From NCBI GenBank assembly GCA_016125225.1, contig WGME01000028.1, forward strand, positions 62,001 to 126,000: 64,000 nucleotides of DNA. The letters are read 5' to 3'. This document shows, piece after piece, positions 9,399 to 12,697 of this stretch (position 1 is the stretch's first letter; each line of letters opens with the position of its first letter). Origin of the DNA: a bacterium. GTDB taxonomy: Bacteria > Planctomycetota > Planctomycetia > Planctomycetales > Planctomycetaceae. The notes under the pieces were generated by a model. The model did no database searches. It was not told the DNA's origin and saw only the letters and a program-made list of their open reading frames with translations. Made by a program: the position numbers and the translations under genes.

Positions 9399-9851
9399 AG
9401 CCAGCGTCCTTGCCCGCCTCTTACCACGGCAAATCTCAGGGCCAAACCACGGCAGGGGTTGCCAACGGCAAACACCAACCGCACAGAGAATTGAATCGAC
9501 CGTCACGGCCGAAAACTTCGGCACAATCGCCACCACCCGCGCAGTTTTCCAGATTCCCACGCCGGATGTGCCTAGTAGCAAGTCCGGACGAAACTAACCA
9601 CAACATCCGCATCCAATTGACACAGCGAGAGTTACGACGAAAGAATCAACTTTCCATCTCGCCAACATCATCAAGTGGGATGGCCGGACCCTCTGGCATT
9701 CTTTCCAACCCACTCGCTGCCGACCACGCTGAATACCATCTAAGAAACCCCACCCATGGTCTAAAAATCGGAGTCCACTTCGGTGGAACTCACTCCCGAT
9801 CAAAAAAAGCCACGCACCCAATTCGGATATGTGGCGCGACAGTCGCCAATC
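9399..9851. other. intergenic region with no supported gene
   Basis: About 450 bases between the small lipoprotein and the HTH protein. Short frames on both strands lack ribosome sites or recognisable domains. The only supported structure is a terminator-like hairpin at 9763-9791. Base composition falls from here rightwards. Confidence 0.5.
9763..9791 (-). terminator. rho-independent terminator candidate after the HTH protein
   Basis: Read on the minus strand, ACTC and CCAC arms pair across a 4-base loop (plus-strand arms 9771-9778 and 9783-9791, one bulged base). A CGATTTTT run follows (complement of 9763-9770). It lies about 60 bases downstream of the stop of the minus-strand HTH gene. Confidence 0.55.
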
Positions 9852-10436
9852 CTACGTCTTCGATGTGGCGGCAACGTATTCGCAAATTCGCTGGTGCGCC
9901 CGATAGGCAATGACCGCAACATTCTGCCGAGAAAGGCCTGTGATGCTGGCAATCTCGACATCATCGAATCCAGCCAGCCGAAGCTCAAGGACGGTGCGCT
10001 GCCTTGGCGTCACGATTTTAATCAGGTCGGCACAATCAAGGCGGTCGTCAACTTTTTGAAGACCGTCCGCTACGGAACTACCTTGCCTTGGAAGTTGTTT
10101 CTGGCGATTCCAGCGACGGCGAATTGTCTTCTTGACATTCACCAACTTTCGGCAGCGGAGGTCAACAGCCGCCTGACGCAACACAACAATGCGGGCCGAT
10201 TCGCCACGAACCGGGTCGGCGATTGCGAGTTGGATTTCCTCGTCTGAGAAATTGCCCAAACTCGCCAAATCCGGGTCAGGTTCTGCATCGAAAATGCCTT
10301 TCAGCAGGTTGTCCGCGGCACGAAGATACCGCTCCTGGTAGAAAAGCTTTGGCGTCCGAGACGCCAGATTTTGAAGTTGCCCTACTGCGACGAATCGCAG
10401 AGCGCGCGCAGGCGCATGGAGACTTTCTTTCATCAT
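9852..10436 (-). CDS. sigma-70 region-4-like HTH protein next to the GHKL ATPase
   Basis: 194 residues, ATG at 10434-10436 preceded by GGAAAGAAGA. The C-terminal third (about 138-186) reads LIKIVTPRQRTVLELRLAG, then DDVEIASITGLSRQNVAVIA and YRAHQRI. This is the pattern of sigma-factor region 4 or LuxR/ECF-type helix-turn-helix domains (R-Q-R-x-V-L-x-L-R, then x-E-I-A-x-I-T-G-L-S-x-x-x-V). The N-terminal part is helical with a basic patch (KKTIRRRWNRQKQ) and has no convincing region 2, so it may be a transcription regulator rather than a complete sigma factor. It has its own candidate promoter and terminator and lies downstream of the GHKL ATPase on the same strand. Opposite-strand frames here are shadows. 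Confidence 0.7.
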   Translation of the reverse strand: MMKESLHAPARALRFVAVGQLQNLASRTPKLFYQERYLRAADNLLKGIFDAEPDPDLASLGNFSDEEIQLAIADPVRGESARIVVLRQAAVDLRCRKLVNVKKTIRRRWNRQKQLPRQGSSVADGLQKVDDRLDCADLIKIVTPRQRTVLELRLAGFDDVEIASITGLSRQNVAVIAYRAHQRICEYVAATSKT

Positions 10437-10516
10437 TCTTCTTTCCTGTTGGTCTGTGCTGCTCGCTGTGGCAGCTGGGATTTACCCCGCTCGCTATGGC
10501 GGGACTTGACCGCATT

Positions 10517-10544
10517 ATCATATCAAAGCAGTTCGATATGACAA
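10517..10544 (-). promoter_or_regulatory. promoter candidate with inverted repeat upstream of the HTH protein
   Basis: On the minus strand, TTGTCA (complement of 10539-10544), a 16-base spacer and TATGAT (complement of 10517-10522) form a good sigma-70-like promoter about 75 bases before the ATG at 10436. An inverted repeat, CATATC (10519-10524) and GATATG (10535-10540), overlaps both hexamers, as an operator would. Confidence 0.5.
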
Positions 10545-10638
10545 TCGCAATTTGCCGTTTTCCTGTTGGGCGACGGCGGAAAACGATCCTCATCGAACCC
10601 GGGGACGATCAACCGATGCCCCCACGCCCCTCAGAATC

Positions 10639-10702
10639 CTCGGCCGGCGGTGTTGGCCGAGTTTCCATCGTCCGTAATGGCGGCTCAATCATCAGCCATT
10701 AC
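10639..10702. other. two inverted repeats at the 3' end of the GHKL ATPase gene
   Basis: CTCGGCC (10639-10645) pairs with GGCCGAG (10655-10661), and GTAATGGC (10674-10681) pairs with GCCATTAC (10695-10702). The second repeat overlaps the ATPase stop codon. Neither has a T-run on the minus strand, so termination is possible but not shown. Confidence 0.4.
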
Positions 10703-12438
10703 ATGAGATTGTTCAAAAATGTCCGCAACACCGTGGACCACTCGGATCTCATGTTGCGGAAGAATTCTTCCGCTTCCTCGCCTCGACTTCTGAACGCCAA
10801 CTCGACACGGCCCAGGCTGAGGAGCAACATCGCCAACGCGGACTGCGGAGATTTTCCATTGAGTTCATCTTCGGCAGGATCAGATTCGCCAGACTCGCCA
10901 TCTGATTCGCTCCGGCTGACGCCGGACAATGGTTCCCAAACCTGATCGTAGAACCGGTGCGCCGTATTTAAGTAGACCACAACACGCGGACCGAAGCTGT
11001 CCACCCGATAGAAGGGACCTTCTGGTGAGTGCTCGAATTCCAGCAAGTACTTCGAATTCTTGACCCGCTGAAATGCCATCTCTGGCGTCTCGCCAGTCCT
11101 GCAATGACCTTTTGCGAATTGCATCAACGATGCATCAACACTTGCTTGATACTCCGGGTTTGTTGGCACTTCGAATGGAGCGGTCAGCAACCGTTCGGCT
11201 TCTGCTGCTCGACGTTCCGTGAATGTCGGTTGGCCACCACTTCGCTGTTCCCTCTGCTCCTTTCGTCGCTGCTGCGAAATCTGTCGCAAACGAGCAATCG
11301 CCGGGCGCAATTCCTTCCTAAGATAATCCTTGACGTAAGCTTTTGGGTGGATTCCCTGCTTGTTGTTGCTGATTCCAAATGCCTCATCCAAGGCTGGCGG
11401 AATATGTACTTCGCCACCCCACCAAGCATCTGCAGCGGTTTCCCTTAGGTCGACGAGTTTGGTCAAGGCCATTTCCATTTCGCGTTCAGCCCGAACGACA
11501 CTCAGGCCATGATGATGGAAGATGTGCCGCTGGTTCCGGTTGACCTTGATATCGTCCTTCATCCACTCTTCGGGAAGCAGTGAAAATCGAGCGACAACGG
11601 TCGCTGTCGGAATCTGATTGCGCGCGAATTCCTCTTCCTCAAGCGTTGGGTCGTAAAGCGGCACATTGATTTTCAACTCGTCACCCCATGCAGCAGCACC
11701 GAAGTGACGGCTCTCATGGTGGATAAACAATGGATCAACTGCCTCGATCAATCGATTATTCACGTAGATGTGAACACCGTTCCAAATCTTGTGCCGGTAG
11801 ATGCGACCGAGTTCCCAACTATGCTCGACAAACGGCCTTGTTTGCTTGTAGCTCAGGCGATCACTTTCGGAAACAACAACAAGGGTTCCATGATCGGGCC
11901 ATGACTGGACTGGAAGCAGGTGCTGTTCTTGTTCGTCACCTTTCGGATAGGTCCCAATCGGCTTCGCCAGGAGTCGTTTCAGGCTATCCGGTACATCCTC
12001 AAGCTCAGGCTCTTCGATCCCGTCGGTTTCTCCTGACTTGATGCGTTCGACATCGAGGACGGCTTTGTAGGTTTCGTTTGGATTCTGCCAAGTGTAAACC
12101 TCAAGCCTTTTTCCCTGTGAAATCGCGGCATTGGGAAGTCCGTAACCGAATCGTCCAATTCCGTGTCTCTCGAATCGATCCCCGCCTCCGAATGCGAGTG
12201 CCTTCTGGAGCAACTCAGGATCCATTCCACGACCGTTGTCAAAAACAACAATGTCGTGGCTGACGATCTTCCGCCCCTCGCGTTGCGGAACATAGTAGAC
12301 TCGAACGTCGTTTGCCCCCGCTTCGATTGAGTTGTCAACGAATTCGTTGACCGCGCTGTGCGTATCTCGGTAGCCGCTGCTCCGCTGAGATTCGACGCTC
12401 GTCTGTGCAATGAACAACGGGATCGTGTTAGCAGGCAT
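10699..12438 (-). CDS. GHKL-superfamily ATPase, MORC/MutL-like (HATPase_c_3 type)
   Basis: 579 residues. The ATG at 12436-12438 is preceded by AAGGAG on the minus strand, so the longer frame is rejected. The N-terminal Bergerat ATP fold is complete: N-box NEFVDNSIEAGA (E32, D35, N36), G1 FDNGRGMDP (D67, G69, G71, M72), G2 HGIGRFGYGLPNAA (92-105) and G3 HGTLVVVSESD. A second domain ends in NRNQRHIF and GLSVVRAEREME, resembling the S5-like domain that follows the ATPase in MORC, MutL and related proteins. The C-terminal half is helical and charged (RQISQQRRKEQREQRSGG) with no known nuclease or kinase motif. Members use ATP-driven dimer closure; bacterial MORC-like ATPases have been linked to restriction-modification and other defence loci. 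Codon and base use look unlike the neighbours, suggesting transfer. Confidence 0.82.
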   Translation of the reverse strand: MPANTIPLFIAQTSVESQRSSGYRDTHSAVNEFVDNSIEAGANDVRVYYVPQREGRKIVSHDIVVFDNGRGMDPELLQKALAFGGGDRFERHGIGRFGYGLPNAAISQGKRLEVYTWQNPNETYKAVLDVERIKSGETDGIEEPELEDVPDSLKRLLAKPIGTYPKGDEQEQHLLPVQSWPDHGTLVVVSESDRLSYKQTRPFVEHSWELGRIYRHKIWNGVHIYVNNRLIEAVDPLFIHHESRHFGAAAWGDELKINVPLYDPTLEEEEFARNQIPTATVVARFSLLPEEWMKDDIKVNRNQRHIFHHHGLSVVRAEREMEMALTKLVDLRETAADAWWGGEVHIPPALDEAFGISNNKQGIHPKAYVKDYLRKELRPAIARLRQISQQRRKEQREQRSGGQPTFTERRAAEAERLLTAPFEVPTNPEYQASVDASLMQFAKGHCRTGETPEMAFQRVKNSKYLLEFEHSPEGPFYRVDSFGPRVVVYLNTAHRFYDQVWEPLSGVSRSESDGESGESDPAEDELNGKSPQSALAMLLLSLGRVELAFRSRGEEAEEFFRNMRSEWSTVLRTFLNNLM

Positions 12439-12481
12439 GTCATTTCTCCTTTTCACTGTGTCGGTCGCTGTGCCGATTTGA

Positions 12482-12496
12482 CACGAACCTCTCGTG
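12482..12496. promoter_or_regulatory. inverted repeat in the GHKL ATPase leader
   Basis: CACGA (12482-12486), a 5-base spacer and TCGTG (12492-12496), about 45 bases upstream of the ATPase ATG. It could be an operator or a leader hairpin. Further upstream on the minus strand there is a weak promoter-like pair (TTGTCC and GCTAAT). Confidence 0.25.
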
Positions 12497-12666
12497 CATC
12501 CAATACCGTTAGGGGCGCGATTAGCAGAGGCAATTACGTAACAGGACAAAAAATCACACTTTTTGCGACCGGTGGCTGGAATCGACCAACGGGAGCCCTC
12601 AGAAACTATGTGGATCGTTCTGAGAGCAGGTCGTCTGCCGTGACGTGGGGGCATGAAGACTTAACG

Positions 12667-12697
12667 CACGGCTGGACAAGCCAGCCTTGGCACACCG
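12667..12697. repeat. REP-like palindrome at the edge of the ATPase island
   Basis: GGCTGG (12670-12675), ACAAG and CCAGCC (12681-12686), followed by TTGGCACACC. The pattern of a short palindrome built on GGCT/AGCC followed by GGCAC is shared with the element at 60329-60351. It lies just downstream of the PQQ propeller gene. Confidence 0.4.

Follow-up and report, generated by a model that had tools for sequence, protein, structure and literature searches.

A conserved two-gene module of a MORC-type GHKL ATPase and a small sigma-region-4-like protein, with hairpin leaders, in a planctomycete

Does a stand-alone GHKL ATPase gene that lies beside a gene for a small sigma-like protein in a planctomycete belong together with it, and if so, what might the pair do and how might it be controlled? 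The locus lies in a 64,000-nucleotide (nt) stretch of the forward strand of contig WGME01000028.1 (Planctomycetaceae; assembly GCA_016125225.1, positions 62,001 to 126,000), the whole of which we call the window. An original prediction, made from the letters alone, had described there a lower-GC (guanine-plus-cytosine) island with an ATPase and a helix-turn-helix (HTH) regulator, possibly a conflict or stress module acquired by transfer. We find that the ATPase gene and the sigma-4-like gene form a conserved two-gene module of patchy distribution. Both open reading frames are present where they had been placed on the minus strand, the ATPase gene (protein P0001, 579 residues) at 10699..12438 and the small gene (protein P0002, 194 residues) at 9852..10436. 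Compared with the 37 other window genes of at least 200 residues, which have a GC content of 58.4 ± 1.4%, the ATPase gene stands at 53.1% (z = -3.9; 57.7% at third codon positions, z = -1.8) and the small gene at 55.0% (z = -2.5), and windowed GC drops from about 58% to 52.4-52.6% across 11.0-12.5 kb. The low-GC island is thus borne out by both measures, although the hand-counted range of 43-55% began too low, and codon use is just mildly deviant (z = -1.0 for the ATPase gene and -1.4 for the small gene).

P0001 is a GHKL/S5 ATPase of the MORC type. It matches the Pfam family HATPase_c_3 (E = 4.7e-20), and the four Bergerat motifs that had been read from its sequence are invariant columns (E32/D35/N36, D67/G71, G93-x-G95-x-F97-G98-x-G100, and G184-T185). 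An AlphaFold2 model built from 40 sequences (mean predicted local distance difference test score [pLDDT], 85) was compared with the PDB using Foldseek; the top matches were MORC2, MORC4, and MORC3, followed by SMCHD1, Hsp90/TRAP1, and MutL. This resemblance to MORC2/3/4 and MutL confirms the S5 domain and agrees with the MORC/MutL-like label given earlier. Against the MORC S5 motif GhXhhpXXRhl, the segment G311-LSVV-R-AE-R319-E-M fits through R319, after which E320 replaces the expected hydrophobic residue. Pfam places no nuclease, kinase, or helicase family in P0001, as had been predicted, and matches no family at residues ~360-579. The ATPase gene is present as a single copy in its genome.

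Single-sequence scans of genome contigs and viral contigs gave no match for the ATPase; relatives were then found with an alignment query. Neither of the two other genomes sampled from the genus has the ATPase, and it is missing from nearly the whole family; among the 170 genomes sampled from the order, only a few hold relatives, which are distant matches to part of the query, as are those in three other members of the family. Full-length relatives of about 35% identity occur in other planctomycetes, Proteobacteria, Myxococcota, and Acidobacteriota, on chromosomes and on plasmids, one of the latter from Roseomonas. Low GC content together with patchy occurrence across four distant phyla fits horizontal transfer, and the suggestion that the genes were acquired in this way is supported. 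A clean empty site was not obtained: the flanking decarboxylase gene is kept in the genus, its downstream neighbours differ, and the other flanks of the module map to unrelated contigs.

A tree of 98 relatives places the window ATPase as sister to a clade whose members carry a small partner gene (SH-aLRT 97). This sister family comprises 20 full-length members besides the window, 14 from a first set and 6 from an independent planctomycete set. The small gene lies on the same strand ~100-300 nt downstream of the ATPase gene in all 14 full-length clade members of the first set and directly downstream in 5/6 of the second, so that the two-gene unit holds in 19 of the 20; the exception, L143, has a methylase-like gene after the ATPase gene and its small gene ~8 kb off on the opposite strand. 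One further row of the clade, L051, is truncated and without the small gene, and the other GHKL subfamilies examined have no small sigma-4-like partner. The partner proteins share one plan, helical at the N terminus, then with a stretch rich in Arg, and with an HTH at the C terminus, and those of planctomycetes match ECF sigma region 4 with E values down to 6e-7. The window pair has the same arrangement, with a full-length ATPase gene and a same-strand partner gene directly downstream. The original prediction was to be given up if homologues of the two genes never occurred together in other genomes; this was put to the test here, and the pairing held.

P0002 likewise shares the plan, place, and strand of these partners: its N-terminal part is helical, an Arg-rich stretch covers residues ~94-115, and a sigma-region-4-like HTH, as foreseen from the sequence, lies at ~140-190. 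It matches Sigma70_r4_2 in Pfam with an E value of 1.7e-5, just below the curated cut-off, and the sigma70-ECF superfamily over region 4 only (E = 8.5e-6). The sigma models match residues ~110-190 alone, the HTH is the sole domain found, and region 2 is absent; P0002 therefore cannot be a canonical sigma factor. An AlphaFold2 model of P0002 alone reached a pLDDT of 46, and no fold was assigned. Queried with P0002, plasmids and genomes of the same family returned only generic sigma factors.

Might P0002 then be unrelated to the partner family and adjoin the ATPase gene by chance? BLAST gives no significant match between P0002 and the partners of the relatives, as chance adjacency would predict, and profile similarity is weak: an earlier profile of 14 partner sequences ranked P0002 11th of 322, which was not significant, and with 20 partner sequences it is first by HMMER and second by hhalign. 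In the HMMER ranking it stands at the top of 574 background proteins with 10.9 bits (E = 0.013), and the runner-up, a sigma factor, scores 7.2 bits. Because sequence similarity is this weak, the main grounds for placing P0002 in the family are its position, its architecture, and the hairpins of its leader. P0002 has the strand, order, and domain plan of the relatives' partners, is the best of the 574 proteins by profile, and has, 21 nt before its ATG, a hairpin with a CACAGCGA loop next to the Shine-Dalgarno (SD) sequence, as in the relatives; we consider a chance neighbour very improbable.

The leaders of the two genes, whose hairpins the original prediction had not noticed, carry the second line of evidence. 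The original prediction had placed a promoter under an inverted repeat upstream of the small gene, and both sites are present. The repeat, ATTGTCATATCG-aactgctt-TGATATGATAAT (10514..10545, minus strand), is imperfect, with 14-nt arms that are 86% complementary, and its core occurs once in the genome, with the same repeat nowhere else in it; it is a possible DNA operator. It overlaps an extended -10 promoter-like site, TTGTCA-16-TATGAT (10544-10517, minus strand; 10/12 with TG), which by itself is not above chance, since such sites number 3 against 1.8 expected. Should this site be the true promoter, transcription of the P0002 gene would begin near 10510, which would put both of the hairpins described below in its leader. 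The terminator claimed for the small gene did not stand, as terminator-like sites occur at chance level (5 found against 5.1 expected). As a separate observation, a 98-nt stretch between the 3' end of the P0002 gene and a lipoprotein-like gene (9684-9781) has no Rfam match and is 84-86% identical to three other places in two other genomes of the genus; it may be a small RNA encoded between the genes, or a repeat.

Counterparts of the window repeat were sought in the relatives, and this search led to the hairpin that we call hairpin 1. Upstream of the small gene, an inverted repeat with an 8-nt spacer was found at about -104 in 12/20 loci; the spacer is conserved as CA[C/T]AGCG[T/C] (loop CAYAGCGN), and the arms differ in almost every locus and are still complementary. 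An alignment anchored on the loop is gapless across all 20 loci, and the hairpin precedes the small gene in every one. Covariation of the 12 pairs is 0.793 versus 0.224 ± 0.032 in shuffled alignments (0/500 as high) and at most 0.293 in slid controls, with 82 versus 29 double-change cells and double changes in all 12 pairs. The close relatives L025 (9552-9591) and L027 (3848-3887) illustrate the pattern: flanks and loop are the same, about half of the stem bases differ, and pairing is kept. A covariance model of the hairpin, R1, built without the window sequence, matched the module locus in 19 loci (E = 8e-8 to 0.01) and no locus of another subfamily below E = 0.8; when ten whole genomes were scanned, the module was usually the strongest match. 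Off-module matches (E = 0.005-0.03) were seen in G795 (contigs C38, C12, and C4), G796 (C68), and G753 (C226), and may reflect either chance or a small regulon. Rfam matched only tRNAs in the window and eight relatives, leaving the hairpins without an Rfam family.

A second hairpin lies close to the SD sequence. Of the 17 anchored small-gene leaders, one of which has an uncertain start, 16 have the 3' end of this hairpin at 17-21 nt before the ATG, with ACA next, and the two arms of a locus form better pairs than do arms exchanged among loci (permutation, 0/2000). The ATPase leaders of the 20 relatives have the same design of a hairpin, ACA, ~8 nt, GGAG, and ATG (for example, GACGTCC-AACAGC-GGACGTC-ACAGAGCCTGGAGG in L028), so that in both genes an SD-proximal hairpin sits 17-24 nt 5' of the start codon. 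The corresponding permutation test on the ATPase leaders was anchored on predicted folds and is biased upward; in an unbiased control, hairpins that end 15-26 nt ahead of the ATG were stronger in both leader sets than in 200 other leaders of equal GC from the same loci (p = 2e-6 and 1e-4).

All three of these hairpins, one with a CAYAGCGN loop and two proximal to the SD, occur at matching places in the window, with short stems. The ATPase leader has TCGG-CACAGCGA-CCGA (12461..12476, minus strand) followed by CACAG-TGAAA-AGGAG-AAATGAC-ATG, and contains the best R1 match of the 64 kb (12488-12449, minus strand; 16.3 bits, E = 0.049). In the P0002 leader, hairpin 1, CCCGC-CATAGCGA-GCGGG (10486..10503, minus strand), is a perfect 5-bp stem with the loop CATAGCGA that agrees with the predicted fold and is a weaker R1 match (10502-10487, minus strand; 9.2 bits). 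Hairpin 2, GCTGC-CACAGCGA-GCAGC (10458..10475, minus strand), is followed by ACAGA-CCAAC-AGGA and ends 21 nt before the ATG; it lies in the second-best R1 match of the window (10486-10447, minus strand; 15.7 bits, E = 0.077), and the predicted fold agrees. The two best matches in 64 kb are thus the two leaders of the module, and matched leaders on both genes imply joint control.

What reads these hairpins is less certain. They could be sites at the level of DNA, either dyad operators or cruciform or single-stranded hairpins that are read by the partner protein or by the MORC-like ATPase. In the stems, G-U mismatches are about as common as A-C ones, the window dyad covers a promoter-like site, and double-stranded DNA is the usual target of a sigma-4-like HTH, all of which would suit such sites. 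Their fixed position 17-24 nt from both start codons, by the SD sequence and downstream of the likely promoter, is less easily explained in this way, as is a conserved loop between freely varying stems, which is unlike a double-stranded operator read by a conserved recognition helix; we regard DNA-level sites as unlikely. We infer that the hairpins act as RNA with the small protein as their ligand, and RNA is favoured because spacing to the SD sequence is fixed and the stems vary freely.

Alternatively, the small protein may be a structural partner of the ATPase, such as a DNA-specificity or loading subunit, with the hairpins controlled by ribosome occupancy, by another RNA-binding protein, or by SD sequestration. 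The fixed order of ATPase gene and then partner gene, often with separate leaders for translation, is consistent with this, as is the use of a region-4-like HTH as the DNA-binding part of other defence proteins (DndH variants, PMC10853773; BrxL, PMC12839542); in many predicted folds the outer stem also pairs with the SD sequence, as other modes of hairpin control would have it. A leader type common to both genes, however, fits a shared regulator encoded by the module, and the Arg-rich stretch and small size suit a nucleic-acid-binding regulator at least equally well. We judge a structural role, like DNA-level sites, to be improbable but worth keeping in view.

Is the module one of defence? Restriction or other defence genes adjoin at least 6 of the 20 sister-family members. 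Directly upstream of the module in L025/L026 are genes for a Dcm-type methylase, Vsr, and an MvaI/BcnI endonuclease; L008 has a C5-methylase, a helicase-related protein, and Vsr within 12 kb, with DUF4917 adjoining; L022 has DUF4917 (PADLOC candidate PDC-S21), DUF499, and a DUF1156 methylase; L029 has a DUF1156-type methylase and an HmaA/DrmD-like helicase; and L028 has a cysteine desulfurase gene along with PAPS-reductase-type ones, which are Dnd-like in that they cluster with annotated loci. As relatives adjoin restriction sets, handling of foreign DNA is the likeliest use, and we infer a defence role. The module might instead be a mobile housekeeping or stress module acting on DNA topology, a reading to which the window copy and several relatives (L019 and L024) lend themselves, being without defence neighbours. 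The defence genes beside 6/20 relatives, the patchy phyletic pattern, and the embedding of distant homologues in phosphorothioation and Druantia-type loci argue the other way, and we think such a role rather unlikely. The conflict module of the original prediction is thus supported by the neighbours of the relatives and not by those of the window copy.

Several other arrangements of GHKL genes were seen among more distant relatives. In L010 (7923-12230), L037, L038 (4877-11470), and L147 (4288-11223), a GHKL protein of another subfamily is followed by a DruA-like protein (in L010, PADLOC DruA, E = 9.5e-178); a second GHKL ATPase is present in L010, L038, and L147 and a sigma-like HTH gene in L010 and L038, and the arrangement may be a Druantia-related, undescribed subtype. 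A large clade of MORC-like ATPases (L011-L015 and L044-L097) has a DEAD/DEAH helicase on one side and a phospholipase-D-fold protein on the other and adjoins phosphorothioation genes (PAPS reductase, DUF4007, and cysteine desulfurase); the phosphorothioation/BREX papers searched make no mention of MORC or GHKL. A planctomycete-specific clade (L031-L043) has ATPases of ~550 residues and no small partner, with a DNA-methylase-like gene next in L031, and in L017 (104-4489; planctomycete G220) a distant GHKL ATPase precedes a second, large GHKL-like protein (842 residues) with an integrase gene adjoining.

How does the module compare with known systems? Prokaryotic MORC and paraMORC GHKL ATPases have been described in restriction-modification operons (Iyer, Abhiman, and Aravind 2008, PMC2292703). 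The window ATPase resembles them in its GHKL and S5 domains, four motifs, closest solved folds (MORC), and lateral mobility, and its relatives likewise have Dcm methylase, Vsr, and type II endonuclease neighbours; it differs in having no helicase or nuclease fused or adjoining and no restriction-modification neighbourhood, and the text consulted from that paper does not mention a sigma-4-like partner or structured leaders. The nearest curated defence match to P0001 is MzaB, the GHKL protein of the MZA anti-phage system (NCBIfam, E = 8e-13); membership was rejected, as the match covers residues 15-140 only and scores 47.6 bits against a cut-off of 850, and no Z1, AIPR, or other MZA gene is present at the window locus or adjoins the ATPase gene. 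GHKL-nuclease fusions act in phage defence, among them paraMORC3/Shedu VcSduA (PMC12137116), which has the GHKL ATPase in common with P0001; the C-terminal DUF4263 PD-(D/E)xK nuclease is missing from P0001 by Pfam, and membership here too was dropped. GHKL proteins also pair with response-regulator-like proteins, and the HEF_HK/Response_reg_2 pairs linked to paraMORCs similarly combine a GHKL protein and a regulator near type II restriction genes (PMC8011034). The window regulator differs in its sigma-4-like HTH, which is not response-regulator-like, and the locus has no second HATPase_c or HEF_HK domain; a two-component system and a toxin-antitoxin pair were considered and dropped. ECF sigma factors share the region-4 HTH with P0002, which lacks their region 2. 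Among the open-licence PMC papers searched, neither a sigma-4-like partner nor such leaders are described; given these papers and Rfam, MORC-type ATPases in restriction loci are known, and the partner and leader element are new.

GHKL/S5 proteins such as MutL and MORC suggest an ATP-driven dimeric clamp on DNA. By analogy, the ATPase of the module would close as such a clamp and act in conflict between host and invader, with nucleases encoded elsewhere or, in other genomes, by neighbours; for the window copy, the nuclease would be unlinked. Structured leaders on both genes would hold the module at low or conditional expression. An ACAGC-type-loop hairpin and then ACA stand just 5' of each SD sequence, with the CAYAGCGN hairpin also 5' of the small gene, and the small protein, as the likeliest regulator, would damp both its own production and that of the ATPase by binding these hairpins or their counterparts in DNA; binding could be to RNA through the Arg-rich stretch or to DNA through the HTH. 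Overall, we put at about an even chance the proposal that this is a horizontally spread module with a MORC-type ATPase, associated with defence, and that structured leaders place its two genes under shared control, probably exerted by the small protein.

Several observations weigh against this proposal. Sequence links P0002 only weakly with the partner family (10.9 bits), and the window stems are short (4-5 bp); the ATPase-leader hairpin of the window is weak alone, with RNAfold favouring a different pairing, and the local folding z-scores of the window leaders are weak (-1.5 and 0.0). Among inner pairs of the stems, G-U and A-C number ~7 versus 5, which does not separate hairpins of RNA from those of DNA. 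No gene for restriction, modification, or a nuclease adjoins the window copy, its own genome has one C5-methylase locus, on a different contig, and several relatives (e.g., L019 and L024) sit among ordinary metabolic genes. The more specific proposal, in which the sigma-4-like, Arg-rich protein is an RNA-hairpin-binding regulator that sets translation both of itself and of the MORC-type defence ATPase by way of a new CAYAGCGN leader RNA family, is one that we hold tentatively and believe somewhat less probable than not. It may be likened to the N-boxB or coat-operator pairs of phages, and under it the fast divergence of stems that keep their pairing would mean that loop recognition, not stem sequence, is under selection.

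A link between restriction systems and bacterial ATPases of the MORC type has been on record since 2008. A clade with an obligate small partner and covarying leaders makes the control of MORC-type ATPases testable in laboratory bacteria. If the proposal is true, the leaders would represent a family of leader RNAs (or DNA hairpins) beyond Rfam, with a sigma-4-like domain at work outside promoter recognition, and the module would offer small bacterial models with a defined partner for eukaryotic MORC biology.

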